Shown piece by piece: positions 3,102 to 62,605 of a stretch of DNA of 64,000 nt. The position numbers and the translations under genes are program-made. The stretch is from Pilaira anomala (Eukaryota; Mucoromycota; Mucoromycetes; Mucorales; Mucoraceae): the NCBI GenBank assembly GCA_025716855.1, contig JAIXMQ010000003.1, positions 790,001-854,000 on the forward strand, given 5' to 3'. Every line of letters starts with the position of its first letter. Position 1 is the stretch's first letter. Below the pieces are notes generated by a model, which was not told the DNA's origin, ran no database searches, and worked only from the letters and a program-made list of their open reading frames with translations.

Positions 3102-5117
<2,016 letters not shown>

Positions 5118-22409: not shown

Positions 22410-24134
22410 ATTTGATATAGTGATATTAATCTTATTTTTAATTATTAGACTTACTCTTATGCTAGACATTTTATCGGTGCTTGTACTCGTGTACTTGGTT
22501 GTGAATCCACCCAAACCGGTGTCAATGTCAACGGTCATATTGTTTCTGTTGGTACATTCCCTATCGGTATTGACGCTAACCGCGTAGATCAATTCCGTAC
22601 CGAACCTAATGTTGCACCCAAGATGAAGGCTATCCGTTCCATGTATGCTGGTAAGAAGATTATCATCGGTCGTGACAAGTTAGATTCCACCAAGGGTGTT
22701 CTTCAAAAGTTACATGCCTTTGAAAAGTTCTTGCACGATTATCCTGAATGGCGTAAAGAAGTTGTACTTGTTCAAGTAACCACACCTACCTATGGTGATA
22801 ACTCCAAGTTAGAAAACAAGGTCTCTGAAGCCGTTAGCCATATTAACAGTCTTTATGGTTCTCTTGAGTTCACACCTGTTCACCATTATTATCAAGATAT
22901 TGATCGTGATGAATACTATGCTCTTTTATCTGTTGCAGATGTTGGTTTAATTACAAGTTTAAGAGATGGTATGAATACTACTTCCTTAGAGTACATCATT
23001 TGTCAACAAGAGTCTCATGGTCCTCTTATTCTTTCTGAATTCACTGGTACTGCTGGTTGCTTGAGTGCTGCCTTGATTGTGAACCCATTTGATTATGCTG
23101 GTGTTGCTAAGGCATTAAATGAAGCTTTATTGATGAGCCCAGATGATAAGCTTACACGTCATACCCAACTCTTCCAATACGTAAAAGAACATTCTGCTGC
23201 TTACTGGGCCAAGTCTTTTGTCAAGCAATTGGTTGAGAGCACTCAAAACTTTTCTCTTCAATCTCAAACCACACCTGCTTTAAACCCTCAATCTTTAATT
23301 GACAACTACAAGCAATCCAAGAAGCGTCTCATGTTCTTTGATTATGATGGTACTTTAGCACCTATTGTTTCTGTCCCTACAGATGCTAAACCTACACCTG
23401 AAATGTTGAGTTACTTGCAAGAACTCTGTAATAACCCCCAAAATGAAGTCTGGGTAGTCTCAGGTCGTGATCAAGCTTGTTTAGAAGAATGGTTAGGAGG
23501 TATCAAGAACCTTGGATTAAGTGCAGAACATGGTTGTTTTGTTAAGGCAGCTGGAAGTACACAATGGACAAATATCTTGGAGAATGTGGATATGAGTTGG
23601 AAGAAGGATGTTGTTGAAATCTTTGATTACTATACTGAACGTACTGAAGGTAGTTTTGTTGAACATAAAAAGTCTTCAATCACATGGCATTATCGTATGG
23701 CAGATGAAGAGTATGGTTTATTCCAAGCAAAGGAATGTCAAAATCATTTAGAAAACTCGGTCGTTGCTAAAATGCCTGTTGAAATCTTGGTCGGTAAGAA
23801 GAACTTGGAAGTACGTCCCATGATGGTGAATAAGGGTGAAATCGTGAAACGTATCATGGCTCAATCTCCTGGTGCTGACTTTATCGTATGCGCTGGTGAT
23901 GATAAAACTGATGAAGATATGTTCCGTACTCTTTCTGCTAGCTATTTCTCTCGTTATCAAGATCAATTGAACTCTGGTAACACTGAAACTACCTGGAAGG
24001 ATACTAAATCTTCTCTCTTCTCCGTCACTGTGGGTCCACCTGGAAAGAAGAGTATGGCTAACTGGCAAGTTGAAACTCCTGCTGATGTGGTTGATCTCAT
24101 TGCTAAAATGGCAGAAGCAGATAAACAAGCATAA
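21290..24134 (+). CDS. TPS2: Trehalose-6-phosphate synthase/phosphatase complex protein, TPS2-type (GT20 + HAD phosphatase)
   Basis: Five exons: 21290..21845, 21909..22049, 22121..22246, 22316..22368 and 22449..24134, giving 853 aa. The N-terminal half is a glycosyltransferase family 20 domain (LWPLFHYL, FLNDYHLLLVPEML, GRDKLDSTKGV, SLRDGMNTTSLEYI). The C-terminal half is a HAD trehalose-phosphatase with the nucleophile motif FDYDGTLAPI near residue 590, WVVSGRD, AEHG and CAGDDKTDEDMF. This two-domain order is that of yeast Tps2, which dephosphorylates trehalose-6-P. The GT20 half keeps several sugar-nucleotide residues, so weak synthase activity cannot be excluded. An acidic Glu run (about residues 64-73) is followed by a basic HHRRGR segment. 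A CCCCCT stretch about 50 bp upstream resembles a stress element. The stop is 162 bp from the convergent pICln gene. Confidence 0.94.
22370..22407. repeat. Poly(A) tract opening TPS2 intron 4
   Basis: The intron begins GT followed by about 37 A, the same arrangement as in URC4 intron 3. Confidence 0.95.
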
Positions 24135-53095: not shown

Positions 53096-55444
53096 CTACT
53101 TGTTGGTATTCTTTTTTAACATAGTACTATCATCAATGCTGACGACAGAAGCAGCAGATGAAGCATTCAGAGATTTATCACTCATCAAAGATGAAGTGGT
53201 AGTGGTGGTATTTGGTTTACTATTAGTAGTAGTAGTAGTATTAGGATTATTTTTAAATTCATCTGGAGTTTTGTTTTTCGTTTCATCTAAATTTTCAACA
53301 CGACGTAACATATGCCATATTAAATCTTTGTTTGTCCAATAAGAGAAATGAGCTCTTAAACCAATCAAGTATTCATTTGCGATCATGGACATGACACTAT
53401 CAGGTTGTAATACATAATCTAATCTACATTTACCTGGCAAACGATTGATTTCTTCTTGTTCAATTCTTGCCTCATCTTCCTCTGTTGTGATCTCCACAGC
53501 TTGTTCTTCTGTTTCATCTGCAGCAGCAGTAGGTACTGTAGCATCTTGTGCAACATCGGCCCGAGACTCTCCTGGGTTTGTAATGGCTGGACCTGGTTTA
53601 TTTAATTCTTTATTTAAATCAGACCAAATGTCATCACCACCTGATCCATTCTCTGATTTATTTTCATGCTTATCAAAGTTAACTCGAGCACGTTCAAAAG
53701 AATCTACACGTACACCATCAATACCAAGTACTTCTACTAGATGTTGTCGAGTTGGATGGTTTTCAAAAGTTAAAGTTCTGCGGAGTGCATTCGTTTCAAG
53801 TGTTGTACTACTATTACTGCTACTACTATTGTTTTTAGTTGCTTTATCTAATACGGAACCATCTGAATTTTGTTCAAGAGAAGAAGAATAAAGACTATCA
53901 TCATGAGCAGCATAAGTCTTTGATCGAATGTTCATGTTTGGACGCTTTGAGGGTACATTTTGAATAGAAGTGTTGTTTAGAGTTCGATCGAGATCATCAC
54001 GTAAAGCTAATAATTGTTCTCGCGTTTGTTCTTTTAATGGATCCCAAGTGATGATACCAATGTCTTTTGGATCGGTTTCTTTTCGAGGTTCTTGTTTTGT
54101 TCCACCACCTTTTGAAAAGTAACCCATGACAGATGACATGAATCCAGATTGTTGTTGATTTCCTGTTGCAGCAGAAGAAGAGTTGATATCAGCAGTAGGT
54201 TCTATATTAGATTCTTCAGCTTGATTAGCAGCTTCAGCAGTAGCATTAAACATGGTTTTAGCAGCTTTATCTTGAGATTTCCAGGAGAAGAAAGAAAAGA
54301 AACCAGCAGTAAGTGGAAAAGAAGGCATGGATGGAAACGAAAAGGAAGGACCGAATGGGATAGACCGTTCGATCAAGACAGCTGGTTTATCAGTAAAGTA
54401 ATCACTGTACAAGGGTTCAAATCGATACCCAATGGGATCAAATGGATGAAATACATTTTCAAACTGAATATCAGTCTCTGGATGATAATGGGTAGGATCT
54501 TGACCACGAAAGGTTAATACAGCACCTAAAGGAGAGCCAAGACCATAAAAGAAATCAGGTTTAAAATCCAATTTTGAGAATTTGATGTTGTCTAGTTTTT
54601 GATAGTTTTCTTTTTGTATTTGATTTGAAGGTTCACGTTGATGAGATAAGATGTCCCAGACAATAACACCACCAAGAGAATAACCCAAGATGACTATTTT
54701 TCCATCAAAGTTTGGATGCTTTTCTTTAAAGTTATGGTATGAAGTATTGAAGAGTTGAGTGACATTGTCCACGATGTTTTGACCTCGGTCCTTTGAGAAA
54801 TAAAATAAGACGTCGGCTAGGTAATCGTTTTCAATCAGTCGGATTGTGGGTAAAGATTTTAATGTGATCTTGTTGATAATCGGATCTACTTGTTCGTGAA
54901 TGTGTCTATGCCATTCGATTGGTATCAGTTCTATACGAACGTTATGATCGGGAACTTTTGCTTGTAAAACTTGACGTGTAGTCTCTTGCAAGTTTTCGAC
55001 TAAAAAAGAATAAGTAAAAAGATATATTATTCCATGTTTTCGTTTTAACTTACTATGTTCATAAAAGTGTCCATATTGTTCTGTTTGCTATTATATTCTT
55101 TCACATGTTAGTTTCTGACCTTTAAACATATAAACCTTTTTTTTTTTTTTTTTTTTTACCTGTCCGATACCCTTAAATAAAATTATCATGTGAATAATAC
55201 TGAAGAATATGATAGAATAGAAGAGAAACTTACATGAATAACAAAGATAAGATGGTCTACTGGTTTAGGCGCAGCAGGTTCAACATCAGGTTCTATTTGT
55301 GTTGGTATATCTTGCAAGTCATCTTTTTTGTTGTTGACATGTTTAGTTTTTTTTTTTCAAATGAAGAGAGTATATTTATATAAACTCACCTAAACTGGTG
55401 ACTGATAAAGGTGGGGAAGGTACATAAGTTGCTTCAAAAAACAT
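53096..55444 (-). CDS. DDHD-domain intracellular phospholipase A1 (PA-PLA1/iPLA1)
   Basis: Five exons: 55444..55390, 55322..55234, a 12-nt microexon 55171..55160, 55087..55054 and 54999..53096, giving 697 aa. The small exons build VDHLIFVIHGIGQQTEQYGHFYEH, the conserved opening of the lipase core. GYSLGG (Ser about 171) is the GxSxG nucleophile elbow. FYGLGSPLGAVLTFRGQ and FHPFDPIGYRFEPL follow. The C-terminal DDHD region holds RLDYVLQPDSVMSMIANEYLIGLRAHFSYW. Between these lies a long Ser/Thr/acidic linker of about 250 residues. DDHD lipases hydrolyse phosphatidic acid and other lipids; they act at the ER, Golgi or mitochondria. There is no WWE or SAM domain. It is divergent from the HMG gene at 271 bp. 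Confidence 0.9.
55160..55171 (-). other. 12-nt microexon of the DDHD phospholipase
   Basis: GGTATCGGACAG, flanked by TTTAAG and GTAAAA. It encodes GIGQ of the conserved HGIGQ lipase motif, which makes the tiny exon credible. Confidence 0.88.
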
Positions 55445-55715: not shown

Positions 55716-57822
55716 ATGCCATACTCGGTGCAATGTCCTAATTGTTCAGATATAAAAATACATGATAAAAAGATAACTGGCTTATAGTAAAGTATTTCCA
55801 TTCAATAATAATAATAACAACAACTTACTAAATAAAATGAAAATAGTAAATGTCCTTCATGTCGAGTAGTGTATCTACCCAAACCTATAAACCAAGATAA
55901 CTCTAGTTTACAATCCAAAGATAATAAGAGAGGAGAACCTGAGAAAGCATCAAAGTCGTTATTAAATAACATGATATCAATTAACTCGGTCAAATCGAAT
56001 TCAACAAAGGCCCCTGCGAAAACAACGACCGATAAGAAATTTGTATTGGAGTTTTCAGATGACGATGACGATGAAATAGTCGATCTGTCTAGTTTGAAAT
56101 TATCGAAATCATTAAATAAGATTAAAGCATATAATGAGAATGCTAAAAAGATTTTACGGCGCCCAACAAGGCCTGAACTTGACTTTGAATTAAGCGATAT
56201 TGAGAGTGAAGATGATACAAAAGATAAAGTGCCTTTTCGACCCCCAACAACAACAGCAAAAAAATCAAAGACTGAAATAGATTTAGAATTAAGCGATGTG
56301 GAGAGTGTAAATATCAAGAATGACAAGACGCTCTTAAGACGTCCAAAAGCGACAAAAACAACCATAACAGAAACAAAGAATAAAGCAGATTTTGAATTAA
56401 GTGATGTTGAGAGTGTAGATATTAAGAATAATAAAGCACTCTTTCAACGCTCATCAACAGCAAAGTCTAAAAGTTACCATGAGAGTGAAGATATTAAAAA
56501 TAAAAAGACATCTTTTACACACCCGTCAACAAGACAATCTAAACTTAACTTTGCCATAAGCGACGTTGAGAGTGTAGATGTTAAGAACGATAAAAGTTTT
56601 TCAGTAGAAAAGACCCCAACAGCAACTAGACAAAAAAGAGCAGTAGAATTATCTTCAGGTTCTGAAAGCGATGAAGAACCTGAAATCATTACAAAGGCGA
56701 ATTCAAGTAGACCAAGAAGGGAAAAGAAAAGTGTATCTGTGTCATTAGATTTTGATATAGAAGAAGAACTTACTTCAAAAACCTCAGGAAAGAAACGAGC
56801 ATTGGAAGACGATGAATATGTAGGAAATGATGATGGATACGATGACAACTATGATAATGATGATGATGATGATTATGTAGACAATGATGATGAATATGAA
56901 GATGAATTTGAAAGAGACTTCTTTACAGAACAGCAAAAGAAAAGACCTGGTTCAGGTCAAGAGGACAAAGAAGGATTTCTTTCATCTACACACTCGAATC
57001 AAGAAGAAGCATCAGACACCATTGGAGGAAAAAAAGTGGTGCGTCTCAATTTTAAAAACGATCCACTTTTTACAAGAAGAATGGATGAAGAGAATGATCA
57101 CCAAAACAAAGACACATCTCCATCAGAGGATCCATTATTTTCAGATATGGATGAGGATATGGATGAAGACTTACCAGAACAACCCAAAACCAAAAAACGA
57201 GCACCTAGAAAACCAAAACCAAAGGCTACTGTTGAACCTGGAGGAGTTTTACAGACAAAAATCTTTAGAAGTGGTATGGAAAAAGATAAGACGATTGATG
57301 ATTCCAGATTACCTAATCCTGACAAACCGAAAAAAAGAAAACGACTTGTTAGAAGATTTGGTGCCAAACCCGGAAATCGATTCAATCCCTTCATCTTGTT
57401 TAATAAGGAATATCGTAGTCAGATAAAAGAAGCCAATCCTCATTTAGATTATCTCGAATTAAATCAATTAGTAGGTAAAACATTTAGAGAGCTTGGCCCA
57501 GTAAGTTTTTTTTTATGTATATATATTTATACACATATACACACTCATACTAAAATAAGAATAATAATAACAGGAGGAAAAGGAAACATTTATGAAAAAT
57601 GTACGTAAAAAGGCGGAAGCAGCTGTAGCAAATGCACCACCCAAACCAATCGAATTTCCAAAGAGACCACCAAATGCATTTTTATTGTTCAAAAGTATTA
57701 ATAAATACAAGTTCAAAGAAAGTGACGAACCAACAAATAATATTAATACATTTATTACAAAGTTATGGAAGAGTACACCTGAGGTAAATAAATAAAATAA
57801 CAATAAAAATAAAATAAAATGA

Positions 57823-57864
<42 letters not shown>

Positions 57865-58031
57865 CATAGGAAGAAAAGGATATATATAGAGAAGACGCTA
57901 AAAGGCTAATGAGAGAATTTATTGAAAAGAATCCAACTCTGTATGAAGAAATGTGTGCAAGTATAAAGGCAAAGGGTAGATCAACAAGAAGATCAAAATT
58001 ACAGAAGACCACCACCCAAAGCGGCGAGTAA
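55716..58031 (+). CDS. Two-HMG-box protein with N-terminal zinc ribbon and acidic repeats
   Basis: Four exons: 55716..55786, 55847..57500, 57574..57783 and 57870..58031, giving 698 aa. The first 38 residues form a putative zinc ribbon, CPNC-x17-CPSC, rebuilt across intron 1. From about residue 120 to 290 an imperfect repeat of about 35 aa recurs: ELSDIESED, ELSDVESVNIKND, ELSDVESVDIKNN, ESEDIKNKKTSF, AISDVESVDVKND. An acidic Asp/Tyr/Asn stretch and basic segments (PKTKKRAPRKPKPK, KPKKRKRLVRRFG) follow. HMG box 1 is RFNPFILFNKEYRSQIKEANP (about 530-600) and box 2 is PKRPPNAFLLFKSINKYKF (about 603-670). Both cross introns. The domains suggest a chromatin-binding protein. I know no named family with this order. 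The kelch-kinase gene starts 84 bp downstream. Confidence 0.8.
56182..56610 (+). repeat. In-frame imperfect repeats encoding (E/A)(L/I)SD(V/I)ES units
   Basis: At least four full units and one partial unit, spaced about 100-155 bases apart, within the HMG gene. They share the coding pattern GAATTAAGCGATGTTGAGAGT with drift. Confidence 0.8.
57828..57862. repeat. (AT)n microsatellite in last intron of HMG gene
   Basis: An AT dinucleotide run of about 33 bases just before the acceptor TCATAG. Confidence 0.9.
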
Positions 58032-58115: not shown

Positions 58116-61100
58116 ATGTCTCGATTAAAGAATCGAATATTATTATTACTTTTAAGCTTAAAACTAGTAACAACACAAAGTAATGTAGGCATTGGACCTA
58201 TTCAAACCAATGTACCTTGGAAAGCAGGTCATGCTTCAGGTAATTATTTTGTTATTGTTTTTTTTTTTTTTAAAAAAAAAAGAGGGCTTATTATTCTTAA
58301 TTTATTTAGCACTCGTATACCCCTATGTTATCATGTATGGTGGAGCAGAAGATTATTTACAACCCATGTCAACACAATCTTCAGGCTCTACAGGATTATG
58401 GATATGGGATATTCGAAATGGTTCATGGTATCAACCAACAGTTCAGGTACAAGGCGGAGTTAGCATGCTACCTCAAATCTATTTCAAAGCAACCAATTTA
58501 CCTAGTCAAGGACAGATTGCAGCTATCGTCAGTAATACAACAGGTGGATCAGCTACAGGTGTATTACAAAAATTAGATATAAATAGCTGGTCATGGAGTT
58601 TCCCGACAACAAGTAATAATAATAATAATAATAAAGAGTGTATGTGTGTAACCATACTTATAATAATTATTCTATATGTATATTTAGATTTTCAAAGCAG
58701 TGCTAGAACAATTGGATATTCTATGTTACGAGTAGATAATACGATTTTTACATATGGTGGATTAGCAGTTGGATTAAATGGATACCCAAATTCAAATGCG
58801 ATACAAAATACATTATCATTAATTGATACCAATAGTTTTCAATGGTCTTCTGGATCCAATGGATTAGGATTATCTGATCATTCTACATGTTATTTAAAGA
58901 AATGTAATTGTTTAGTTACGTTTGGTGGAACTACTACAGGAAATCCAATTGAAGTAACTGATGTAACGTATACATACTATAATAATCAATTTGTTATTAT
59001 ACTATATTTATTTATATTTAATAGGCTGTCAACTTGTATGATGTGAATTCAAAAGTTTGGAATGTACAAGGTATTATCACTTCAGCTGGTTCTCCTTCTC
59101 CTGGTGCAAGAAGACTTCATACTGCAAACTGTTTAGATGATATCATGATTATCTATGGTGGTGGAACAAATCAACCTTCTGATACCGATCTTTGGATATT
59201 AAATGCTTCTGCTTATCCTACTTTGGCTTGGGAAAGAAAGACAATCAGCAATCCTTCAGAAGGACCTGGCCTACGCATGGGTAAAAAAAAAAAAAAAAAA
59301 AAAAAAGAAGAATTTATATATATAAAAAAAAAATGTCTGTTGCTGATCTCTTTATAGGTCATTCTTCTGTTTATGATGATGCAAATAAAAAGATTTATAT
59401 GTATGGTGGTTGGGGTGTATCTGCAACCAACGATTCAACCATGTACGTATTAGATGTAATTCATTGGAATTGGACACGTGTAGCAACAACAGGATATCCA
59501 AAAGATGCGATACGACCTAACACTGATCCCAACGACCCAAATAATACAATAAATGGCGAATCCCATGATGACGATAATAATAAAATAAGTACAGGAGCAA
59601 TTGTAGGAGCAATTATAGGTGCATTAGTTGGTTTAATAGCAATTGCTGCACTTGTTTTATTCTGTATTCGAAAGCGACGTCGAGAAGAAAAGGTTGAGGA
59701 ACAAGGAGAAGATGAATTATCAGAAAATATTCAACATCAAGAATTAAAGCATACAGGGAATCATCCTTATTATCATGATGATATAAATCAACAACCGAAT
59801 CAATATCAACAACAACAACAACAACAACCTACAGCCACAAATAAACGCTTGTCAACCGGTTGGCTTCATGGTACAATGAGTACCCGAAATAGTTTTACGA
59901 GAAGATCCGAAATTGGTGATTCCGATCGAGTCGTGACGGGTATTTTAGAGGAATTGAATCAACCTCATCATCATCATGAGGATGATGGCACGGCTGGGGC
60001 AACTCACGGTTCACGTAGTCCCCGTGAATCTTTTCGAAATTCTAAAGTCCTTCTTGTCCCACCCATAAATCAACAACCAGGTCAAGTACCAAATGAAATT
60101 ATATCTCAAAAACCAAATGAATTTTCTATACCTGCTATGAGATTTCATCATTCAGCTAATCAACAAAATATACCCATTGATCATTATCAACAAGAAGCGC
60201 CAGTGAGTTCATCTATGGAAGTATTAAGAAGTATTAAAACAAATGGAAGTAGTATGATGAATCATCCTGCTGGAAGTCAAGTCAGTACTAACACCAAAAG
60301 AGGTGTACCTGTCACTCATGCTACAGTAGAAGATGATGAAAATTGGACATTTGCTGATTCACTTTCAGTCAGTCCTGCTATACAATACATTTTACCTAAT
60401 TCACAACAATTAAGTACAGATACTTGGGATACTACCAAAGATCCACGTCGCATTGTTGAGCATCATTATCCTTCATCCACATTAGATATGCCAATTGCAC
60501 GAACTGTAACACCACCCACCACAACCAATAATAGTAGTAGTAGTAATAATAGCTCTCATCATGATCTCTATCATCACAATGTATTAACAGAAAATAATTC
60601 TACACCGAGTAATAGTCGAAATGGATCCACAACCATTTTAAAATCAAGAGAAATTTCATCTTCTATTTCTACAATACAGTCATCATCTAACAATGAACAA
60701 CAATTTCAATCATTACAACCATTAATTAATGCATTACCTCGTAGATACCAAGTAGATAAAAGTAAAACACCCATTACTGGACCTACCAATAATATTTTAT
60801 TTGCAACACATAATGAAAAAGTCGTAGCAGTGAAATCGTTTGGAAGAAGAGAGGCTTGGGAAAGAGAATGTAGAACGTTAATTAAATTGAAATCTCCTTG
60901 TGTAGTAGAGATATTAGAAGTATTAACGATTCAAAGTGAACCAAGAGGAGAGGAAGAAGTGATGACAACTGAAGAAGAAGTGGAAGGAGATATCAAATAT
61001 GTCACAGTGATGGAACGATTAGATGAGACCTTGAGTAGTTTTATTCGAAATAGTAAACGAAACAATACCACATTGCGAAACGGTAAAATTGCACGAGATA

Positions 61101-61702
61101 TTTTAGGTTGTTTAAGTTGGTGTCATGGCAACGGTATTGCGTTTTGTGATTTAAAGCCAAGTAATATCATGCACAATCAAGATAAGGCATGGAAATTGAT
61201 TGATTTTGAAGGAAGTCGGACGATTCATGAAGAATGTGTTGGTGTGATCACACCAAGGTATTGTCCACCTGAAGTAGCGAGAGCCACAACGTATGGATTA
61301 GAAGGTGCAAATGGTGTGGTCGCTACAGCCAGCGTGGATTTATGGTCATTGGGTTGCGTGATTTATGAACTGGAAACGAAAAAAGCTTTGTTCTCGAGTG
61401 CGATGAAGGATGAAACCATCCTTCATTTTATATCGCATCCTTCACCTTCTACACCTATTTTGAATAATGGGTTGAGGTGGAATGAAAATAAGGAATTGGA
61501 AATACCTCAGTTGGAAAGGATTATACCAAATGCACAAACCAGACAATTAATTAAAACCTTACTTAGTAGAGAACCAAGTAAAAGAGGTTCTGCTACTCAG
61601 TTACTAGTAAGTTGTGATTGAAATCATTTTTTTTTTTTTTTTAAAAAAAGTGTCTATAAATACTAACTTCTTATGTAGGAGCATCCTTACTTTACTAGTT
61701 GA
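58116..61702 (+). CDS. Kelch-ectodomain, single-TM protein with intracellular protein kinase domain (receptor-like kinase)
   Basis: Six exons: 58116..58239, 58310..58612, 58688..58962, 59025..59280, 59358..61606 and 61679..61702, giving 1076 aa. Order: a signal peptide (MSRLKNRILLLLLSLKLVTTQS), then five kelch-like blades marked by VIMYGGAED, IFTYGGLAV, LVTFGGTTTG, MIIYGGGTN and IYMYGGWGV (about 50-375). One TM helix follows at about 396-421 (STGAIVGAIIGALVGLIAIA), with a basic stop-transfer RKRRR. Next is a 380-residue Gln/His/Ser-rich cytoplasmic linker, then a kinase domain (about 790-1070). Kinase: VAVKSF (Lys about 812), FCDLKPSNIM (catalytic Asp 917 and Asn), LIDFEGSR (Asp 935, DFE instead of DFG), TPRYCPPEVA and DLWSLGCVIYEL. 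The glycine loop is not evident. TM and kinase sit in one uninterrupted exon, so the fusion is real in the DNA. Ligand and substrate are unknown. Confidence 0.85.
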
Positions 61703-61819: not shown

Positions 61820-62605
61820 TTATTCGTTTGAAAATTTAGCATTACTGAAATCCATTTCAGGATGTTGTTGTTTAAACTTTGCAAACATTTCTTCCTTTTT
61901 CAATGTATCACTATCTGGTTTACCCATTGACTTTTGACGTTGATCAAACTAAATAAATATATATATATTAGTATAATCATATTAAAACGTTAAAAAAAAA
62001 ATACAATTTTTACCATCATTTTCTCAACCATGGCTCGAGTTTCACCGTCTAATTCACTTAACTGAGAGTTCTCGGGTTGAATACGTTGAGTATTGATCTT
62101 GGGAGCACCTTTCACAACATTCTCCCACCATTGCATTTGATTGATTTTTTCTAAATGAACTAGTACTTCTTTTTGATCTTCTAATGTCCATGTACTATCA
62201 TCTACTTTAATACTTTGACATAATTCACCCTGTGTGTATATATATTTTTTTTTTGAATTAAGTTTTTTTTGTTGTTGTCTTTCTTTGTTGTTCTGGACTT
62301 ACCTCTACAATAGGTTCTTTTCCTTTTAAGCCTACTTTGAATTGATTCTTCTTCAATACGACTTCCAAGTCACGACCACGGGTACCCTTTGGAACAGGAA
62401 TGGTGATATCTACATCTTGTAAAGTTTGTCTCCAACTAAATTTTAGTTAGTTACATTTGTTTATATGTTTGTTAAAAAAAAAATGAATTTACGCGTAAGG
62501 AAGTTGAGCTTGTTCTTCTTCTTCTTTTTGCTTTTCGAGTTTATCTTGGGCTTCCTTGGCTGCACGTTCAGCAGGAGATAAAGCGTCAACAGGTTGTTCA
62601 GACAT
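61820..62605 (-). CDS. nudC: Nuclear migration protein NudC
   Basis: Four exons: 62605..62493, 62435..62303, 62229..62014 and 61948..61820, giving 196 aa, the size of Aspergillus NudC. The start [14 protein letters not shown] lies beyond a long A run. A CS/p23-like domain follows: [40 protein letters not shown], then [30 protein letters not shown]. The conserved end [45 protein letters not shown] is the NudC tail. NudC is an Hsp90 co-chaperone that stabilises dynein/LIS1 pathway proteins and nuclear positioning in hyphae. All introns are GT-AG and in frame. Convergent with the kelch-kinase gene. Confidence 0.95.

Follow-up and report, generated by a model that had tools for sequence, protein, structure and literature searches.

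Passages of two open-access papers describe fungi as being without receptor kinases, with PMC10329083 stating that fungi are generally thought to have neither receptor tyrosine kinases (RTKs) nor receptor-like kinases (RLKs). According to passages of PMC6733946, whose text describes its sampling as a representative set of Mucoromycota, hybrid histidine kinases are the only fungal group resembling receptor kinases, and a passage of PMC3937382 reports a fungal lineage near the tyrosine kinases, mostly in Agaricomycetes. Here we describe a gene of Pilaira anomala, located in a 64,000-nucleotide stretch of contig JAIXMQ010000003.1 (positions 790,001 to 854,000, henceforth the window), that joins a kelch propeller, a transmembrane (TM) helix and a protein kinase domain in one predicted polypeptide. 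No description of a fungal kelch-TM-kinase family was found in the open-licence literature, judged by titles and the beginnings of abstracts among the matches listed, and the word kelch occurs 0 times in the main text of the Rhizopus oryzae genome paper (PMC2699053) and of a fungal kinase paper (PMC2838846).

Translation of six exons at 58116-61702 on the + strand recovered exactly, and without a stop, the 1076-residue model put forward in an initial annotation of the window. That annotation had also placed the last blade, TM helix, linker and kinase in one unbroken exon; indeed, a frame of 749 codons stays open from residue 321 until exon 5 ends (the longest open frame among 300 composition-matched Markov-1 sequences was 145 codons), but the last seven residues fall in exon 6. 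Alternative splice sites for introns 2, 3 and 5 also keep the frame open, and homologues back the chosen sites. The model was aligned with 121 homologues to give 122 rows, 121 of which bear a kinase. Rows in which propeller and kinase are each covered to more than 70% (80 rows) are called near-complete; the 42 partial rows, including P0044, were set aside, and apart from P0044 we read most of them as incomplete gene models or unspliced frames. The features of the gene are as follows (conservation counts refer to kinase-bearing rows; P0003 is a homologue with an AlphaFold model):

58116..61702, + strand: whole gene, six exons, encoding the 1076-residue kelch-TM-kinase protein (exon model, homologues)
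58116..58239, + strand: exon 1, signal peptide (residues 1 to ~21) and start of the propeller (exon model, hydropathy)
58310..58612, + strand: exon 2, blades 1-2 (exon model, GG motifs)
58688..58962, + strand: exon 3, blade 3 and start of blade 4 (exon model, GG motifs)
59025..59280, + strand: exon 4, remainder of blade 4 and blade 5 (exon model, GG motifs)
59358..61606, + strand: exon 5 (2249 nt), blade 6, TM helix, linker and nearly the entire kinase in a single open frame
61679..61702, + strand: exon 6, the final seven residues EHPYFTS and the stop codon (exon model, homologue junctions)
59594..59665, + strand: TM helix, residues ~399-422, with GxxxG motifs, then RKRRR (hydropathy; helix in the P0003 model)
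59672..60733, + strand: cytoplasmic linker, residues 425-778, with short conserved motifs such as Q.PNE...QKPNEFS (disorder predicted in P0003)
60734..61606, + strand: kinase domain, residues 779-1069, its final residues in exon 6 (Pfam, structure comparison)
60833..60835, + strand: Lys812, the VAVK lysine (121/121)
60866..60868, + strand: Glu823, presumed helix C glutamate (121/121)
61148..61150, + strand: Asp917, catalytic Asp in FCDLKPSN, non-RD (120/121; Gly in P0119)
61202..61210, + strand: Asp935-Phe936-Glu937, D-x-E replacing DFG (D935 and E937 each 121/121)

The N-terminal half carries the signals of a secreted kelch domain. Kelch Pfam families match the Pilaira protein with a best E of 3.1e-28, and GG motifs at residues 51, 119, 165, 221, 278 and 335 mark six blades, not the five or so counted initially. 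The AlphaFold model of P0003, in which propeller and kinase folds are both confident, likewise has strands forming six four-stranded sheets (grouped by eye), within the six or seven four-stranded blades that define a kelch beta-propeller. Hydropathy supports the annotated signal peptide, whose 10-residue h-region has a mean Kyte-Doolittle (KD) value of 2.64, and gives a single TM peak at residues ~395-426 (KD up to 3.0). As annotated, this helix has a GxxxG face (G399, G403, G407 and G411) and is followed by a basic stop-transfer, and the segment between it and the kinase is long and, in P0003, predicted to be disordered. The TM helix lies between propeller and kinase, with its basic side toward the kinase, in all 80 near-complete rows. 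A weak EphA2_TM match in the Pilaira protein (0.016) and a TM_ErbB1 match in P0029 (5e-9) reflect, in our reading, the GxxxG TM helix only.

The annotated kinase domain is recovered by Pfam as a Pkinase match at residues 804-1074 (E 6.6e-34), and the catalytic residues K812, E823, D917, N922 and D935 are all present in it. We take Glu823 to be the helix C glutamate by its spacing to the SPCVV motif and by comparison with CDK2; N922 is kept in 121 of the 121 kinases, and Asp917, the residue that the initial annotation proposed to mutate, is the catalytic Asp, within CDLKPSN. The motif C[DG]LKP[ST]N is found in 119 of the 122 aligned rows, being missing in P0068, P0087 and the kinase-less P0044, and the HRD position reads [FY]CD across the family, with Cys for Arg before the catalytic Asp in every kinase (121/121). 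Conservation is higher in the kinase than in the ectodomain. On the question of whether the kinase belongs to the RLK/Pelle (TKL) clade of the plant receptors, structural matches tie between MST3, CDK2, DAPK1, CaMKII, CTR1 and PknB among the 50 entries listed, and p38 and CDK12 are the best profile matches (~80 bits each) among the PDB matches listed; no specific kinase group emerged from PDB sequences (best 60 of 190 and best 60 of 1233 matches) or from structure. Judged by its sequence, this is a distinct kinase family with its own HRD and DFG variants. Its specificity would be for Ser/Thr because of the DLKPSN lysine and the threonine of the P+1 loop, TPRYCPPE, both marks of Ser/Thr kinases; the catalytic loop of tyrosine kinases reads DLAARN or DLRAAN.

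The initial annotation had looked to recurrence of the architecture for support, and many early-branching fungi do have relatives of the protein: the same domain order is present in Mucorales, Umbelopsidales, Endogonales (Jimgerdemannia) and Mortierellomycotina. Kelch-kinase proteins occur in ~40 named genera among the matches listed, as counted from printed names, and their assignment to orders is presumed. One homologue search gave the best 120 of 133 matches, and a region search from the Jimgerdemannia protein P0069 among proteins of 802-2551 residues gave the best 120 of 126. In the latter list 111 family members (E 2.8e-39 or better) are followed by nine other kinases from E 1.4e-8. The list misses P0107, which belongs to the family and has a suitable length, and is therefore incomplete. 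Kelch Pfam domains are carried by 108 of these 111 rows, and the other three (P0054, P0060 and P0078) are open frames or models starting near the last blade. No Glomeromycotina, Dikarya or chytrid is found among the organism-named members of the 111 rows, from a word-based candidate step that can miss distant relatives.

In a tree built from 54 of these 122 kinase domains, Mortierellomycotina (13 rows) split from the remainder (100/100), Umbelopsis and Jimgerdemannia lie outside Mucorales, and the Pilaira kinase is sister to that of Thamnidium elegans (99/97), to which it is 86% identical. Inheritance of the family follows taxonomy across Mucoromycotina and Mortierellomycotina, as vertical inheritance would give. 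Some Mucorales have two copies under one locus-tag series, for example Radiomyces spectabilis (P0017, P0035), Phycomyces nitens (P0023, P0025) and Syncephalastrum racemosum (P0018, P0042). The P. anomala genome shows a single kelch-kinase locus: 17 of 22 matches lie elsewhere and are kinase-region frames with E 3.2e-12 or weaker, save one weak TM-region match on contig C215, and further copies were rejected on this search.

The family sequences are already public as unnamed or misnamed proteins. Mortierellomycotina members (P0075, P0077, P0086, P0100, P0103, P0112 and others) bear automatic names that look misleading, such as F-box only protein 42, CDK12/13 and Negative regulator of mitotic exit; no F-box was found in the Pilaira protein (Pfam, E up to 0.1) or in P0104 (E up to 1e-5). 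The UniRef record of an Absidia glauca member is labelled receptor protein-tyrosine kinase despite the Ser/Thr-type loop of the family. GenBank and UniRef names, this one included, were not used as evidence.

Could two adjacent genes, one kelch-TM and one kinase, have been wrongly merged by the gene model? Annotation fusions with neighbours do exist in the family, P0029 being joined to an HMG-box gene and P0122 to a Ubp12-type gene. However, a single 749-codon frame leads from blade 6 into the kinase, the order is the same in 80/80 near-complete rows, and P0003 provides a spliced open reading frame (ORF). The latter, from a source marked 'lgn', is a continuous ORF of 1134 residues that matches the model over all five exon junctions and has QLLENPYFN as its C-terminus. 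A spliced-like end is absent from the remaining 18 of the 19 'lgn' rows, nine of which continue as LLVS, the unspliced reading, and the 'lgn' row P0013 starts MSVADLY..., resembling the last part of the window's intron 4. Since the source appears unspliced by these ends and this start, P0003 would most simply be a cDNA assembly, and its spliced ORF contradicts, in a relative, the separate kelch and kinase mRNAs that would have undone the initial annotation. On the frame, the shared order and the P0003 junctions we rejected a fusion artefact, and consider merged genes extremely unlikely.

Taking the exon structure, domains, topology signals and conservation established here together with the modelled folds, we think it probable that the protein is a single-pass type I receptor-type Ser/Thr kinase with an outside kelch sensor, a clustering TM helix, a cytoplasmic linker and a kinase that keeps its catalytic residues. 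The six-bladed propeller, secreted and probably N-glycosylated, would face the cell wall side of the plasma membrane and bind a ligand; the GxxxG motifs of the TM helix would carry dimers or clusters that bring the kinases together; and the disordered linker, with its conserved short motifs, would hold a kinase able to phosphorylate the linker itself and recruited partners. Because the kinase is non-RD, control would be expected through clustering, the linker or a partner kinase and not through activation-loop phosphorylation. This topology fits the proposal of the initial annotation that a sensor outside the cell, possibly for wall sugar, mating or a partner surface, passes its signal straight to phosphorylation.

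Several observations weigh against such a receptor. A clear signal peptide is found in only 35 of the 80 near-complete rows (control: 47/1600 windows); many of the negative gene models begin at or just ahead of the first blade, but three Umbelopsis-type rows, P0069 and P0117, among those negatives, do not. The longer, triple TM motif is present in only 43 of the 80, and among six Mortierellomycotina rows listed one is without GxxxG and five are without the triple motif. The Blakeslea model P0044 has propeller and TM helix but no kinase. In all 121 kinases the DFG Gly is replaced by Glu, and the degenerate Gly-rich loop retains one Gly (the Pfam match begins at profile position 22); from D-x-E and this loop, kinase activity may be weak or absent. 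Among the aligned kinases only P0119 (Gamsiella multidivaricata) has Gly for the catalytic Asp (YCG), which may reflect either an inactive kinase confined to its lineage or an error in the sequence.

These kinase features are what a receptor with a weak or dead, pseudokinase-like scaffold recruiting an active partner kinase would lead one to expect: D-x-E and the Cys before the catalytic Asp are invariant and the Gly loop is degenerate. However, 120-121 of the 121 kinases retain K812, E823, D917, N922 and D935, P0119 (D917 to G) being the one exception, and pseudokinases usually lose at least one catalytic residue over such divergence; a scaffold is an unlikely reading, though one of the two main alternatives. 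Location raises a different alternative, since a signal peptide and a TM helix cannot separate the plasma membrane from inner membranes. An IRE1-like sensor of the endoplasmic reticulum (ER) or vacuole would have a luminal propeller sensing proteins or glycans, a clustering TM helix and a signalling cytosolic kinase. IRE1 is a transmembrane sensor kinase that fungi do have, and the P. anomala genome holds an IRE1-type RNase domain (PF06479) on contig C146, beside a Pkinase match at C146:17920-18762; moreover, the closest folds include KLHDC2 and KLHDC3, kelch proteins whose binding targets are protein C-termini. Against it, the RNase domain is absent from the Pfam matches of the Pilaira protein (E up to 0.1), whose kinase match ends two residues before the C-terminus, and, as weak evidence, a dilysine-type C-terminal tail is present in 0/80 near-complete rows. 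We hold such an endomembrane sensor to be unlikely. Lack of an HDEL tail (0/131) was dropped as an argument against the ER, as such a tail would be cytosolic. It is very unlikely that the protein serves wall anchoring or adhesion with the kinase as a minor regulator: the genome does encode two kelch-TM proteins, L038 and L043, with no kinase seen, but in the family it is the kinase that is more conserved than the ectodomain.

Upstream of the kelch-kinase gene, an HMG-box-sequence gene (55836-58031, + strand) ends 84 bp ahead of its start codon; the HMG match, in one exon, reaches 25.2 bits in Pfam, just below the 25.4 cut-off. In Rhizopus stolonifer P0029, HMG box and kelch-kinase are annotated as a single protein, and its HMG part aligns with that of the window neighbour (29% identity, E 8e-16). 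The two genes are conserved neighbours, and P0029 is probably an annotation fusion. Another fusion of gene models is probably P0122 (Apophysomyces ossiformis, 2356 residues), a kelch-kinase merged with a Ubp12-type deubiquitinase. On the other side, 61990-62298 (- strand) holds a CS-domain exon of a downstream gene, which we take to be NudC-like. The window also encodes MTHFR (3102-4478, - strand), a protein with glycosyltransferase 20 and trehalose-phosphatase domains (22449-24134, + strand) and a DDHD-domain protein (53096-55087, - strand).

How does the family compare with known systems? Within the same genome, L038 (C57:233341) and L043 (C196:84271) share a signal peptide-like start, kelch and a TM helix with the Pilaira protein, but have a further hydrophobic C-terminal part and no kinase within the 3.5 kb examined. 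Histidine kinases belong to a different kinase superfamily, and no HisKA/HATPase or receiver domain is found among 15 Pfam families (E up to 0.1) in the Pilaira protein. IRE1 is likewise a single-pass protein, which pairs a beta-rich sensor in the lumen with a kinase in the cytosol; here kelch stands in place of the IRE1 luminal domain and the RNase domain is missing. Animal RTKs share the topology, but the catalytic loop here is DLKPSN, the Ser/Thr form and not a tyrosine-kinase loop. Plant RLKs, in particular the non-RD immune receptors FLS2, EFR and XA21, likewise combine a secreted ectodomain, one TM helix and a cytosolic kinase without Arg before the catalytic Asp, in the form HCDLKP; the plant proteins have leucine-rich repeats and DFG, whereas the fungal family has kelch and D-x-E, and no plant receptor kinase is among the best 60 PDB sequences listed in either sequence search. 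It is a bolder and improbable idea that fungi evolved the family independently as a counterpart of the non-RD pattern-recognition receptor kinases of plants. Its kelch propeller would then sense glycans or peptides at the cell surface, and its kinase, non-RD and with D-x-E, would signal that the cell has met bacteria or partner hyphae or that its wall is damaged; if true, the kingdom Fungi would have a class of innate-recognition receptor kinases marked by a catalytic signature of their own. Within the family D-x-E is fixed in the DFG place (121/121) and goes with one ectodomain, kelch (108/111 rows listed). As a conserved kelch-TM-kinase family it offers a concrete gene for asking whether Mucoromycotina and Mortierellomycotina sense surfaces by direct phosphorylation, and it contradicts, for these two groups, the view that fungi lack receptor kinases.
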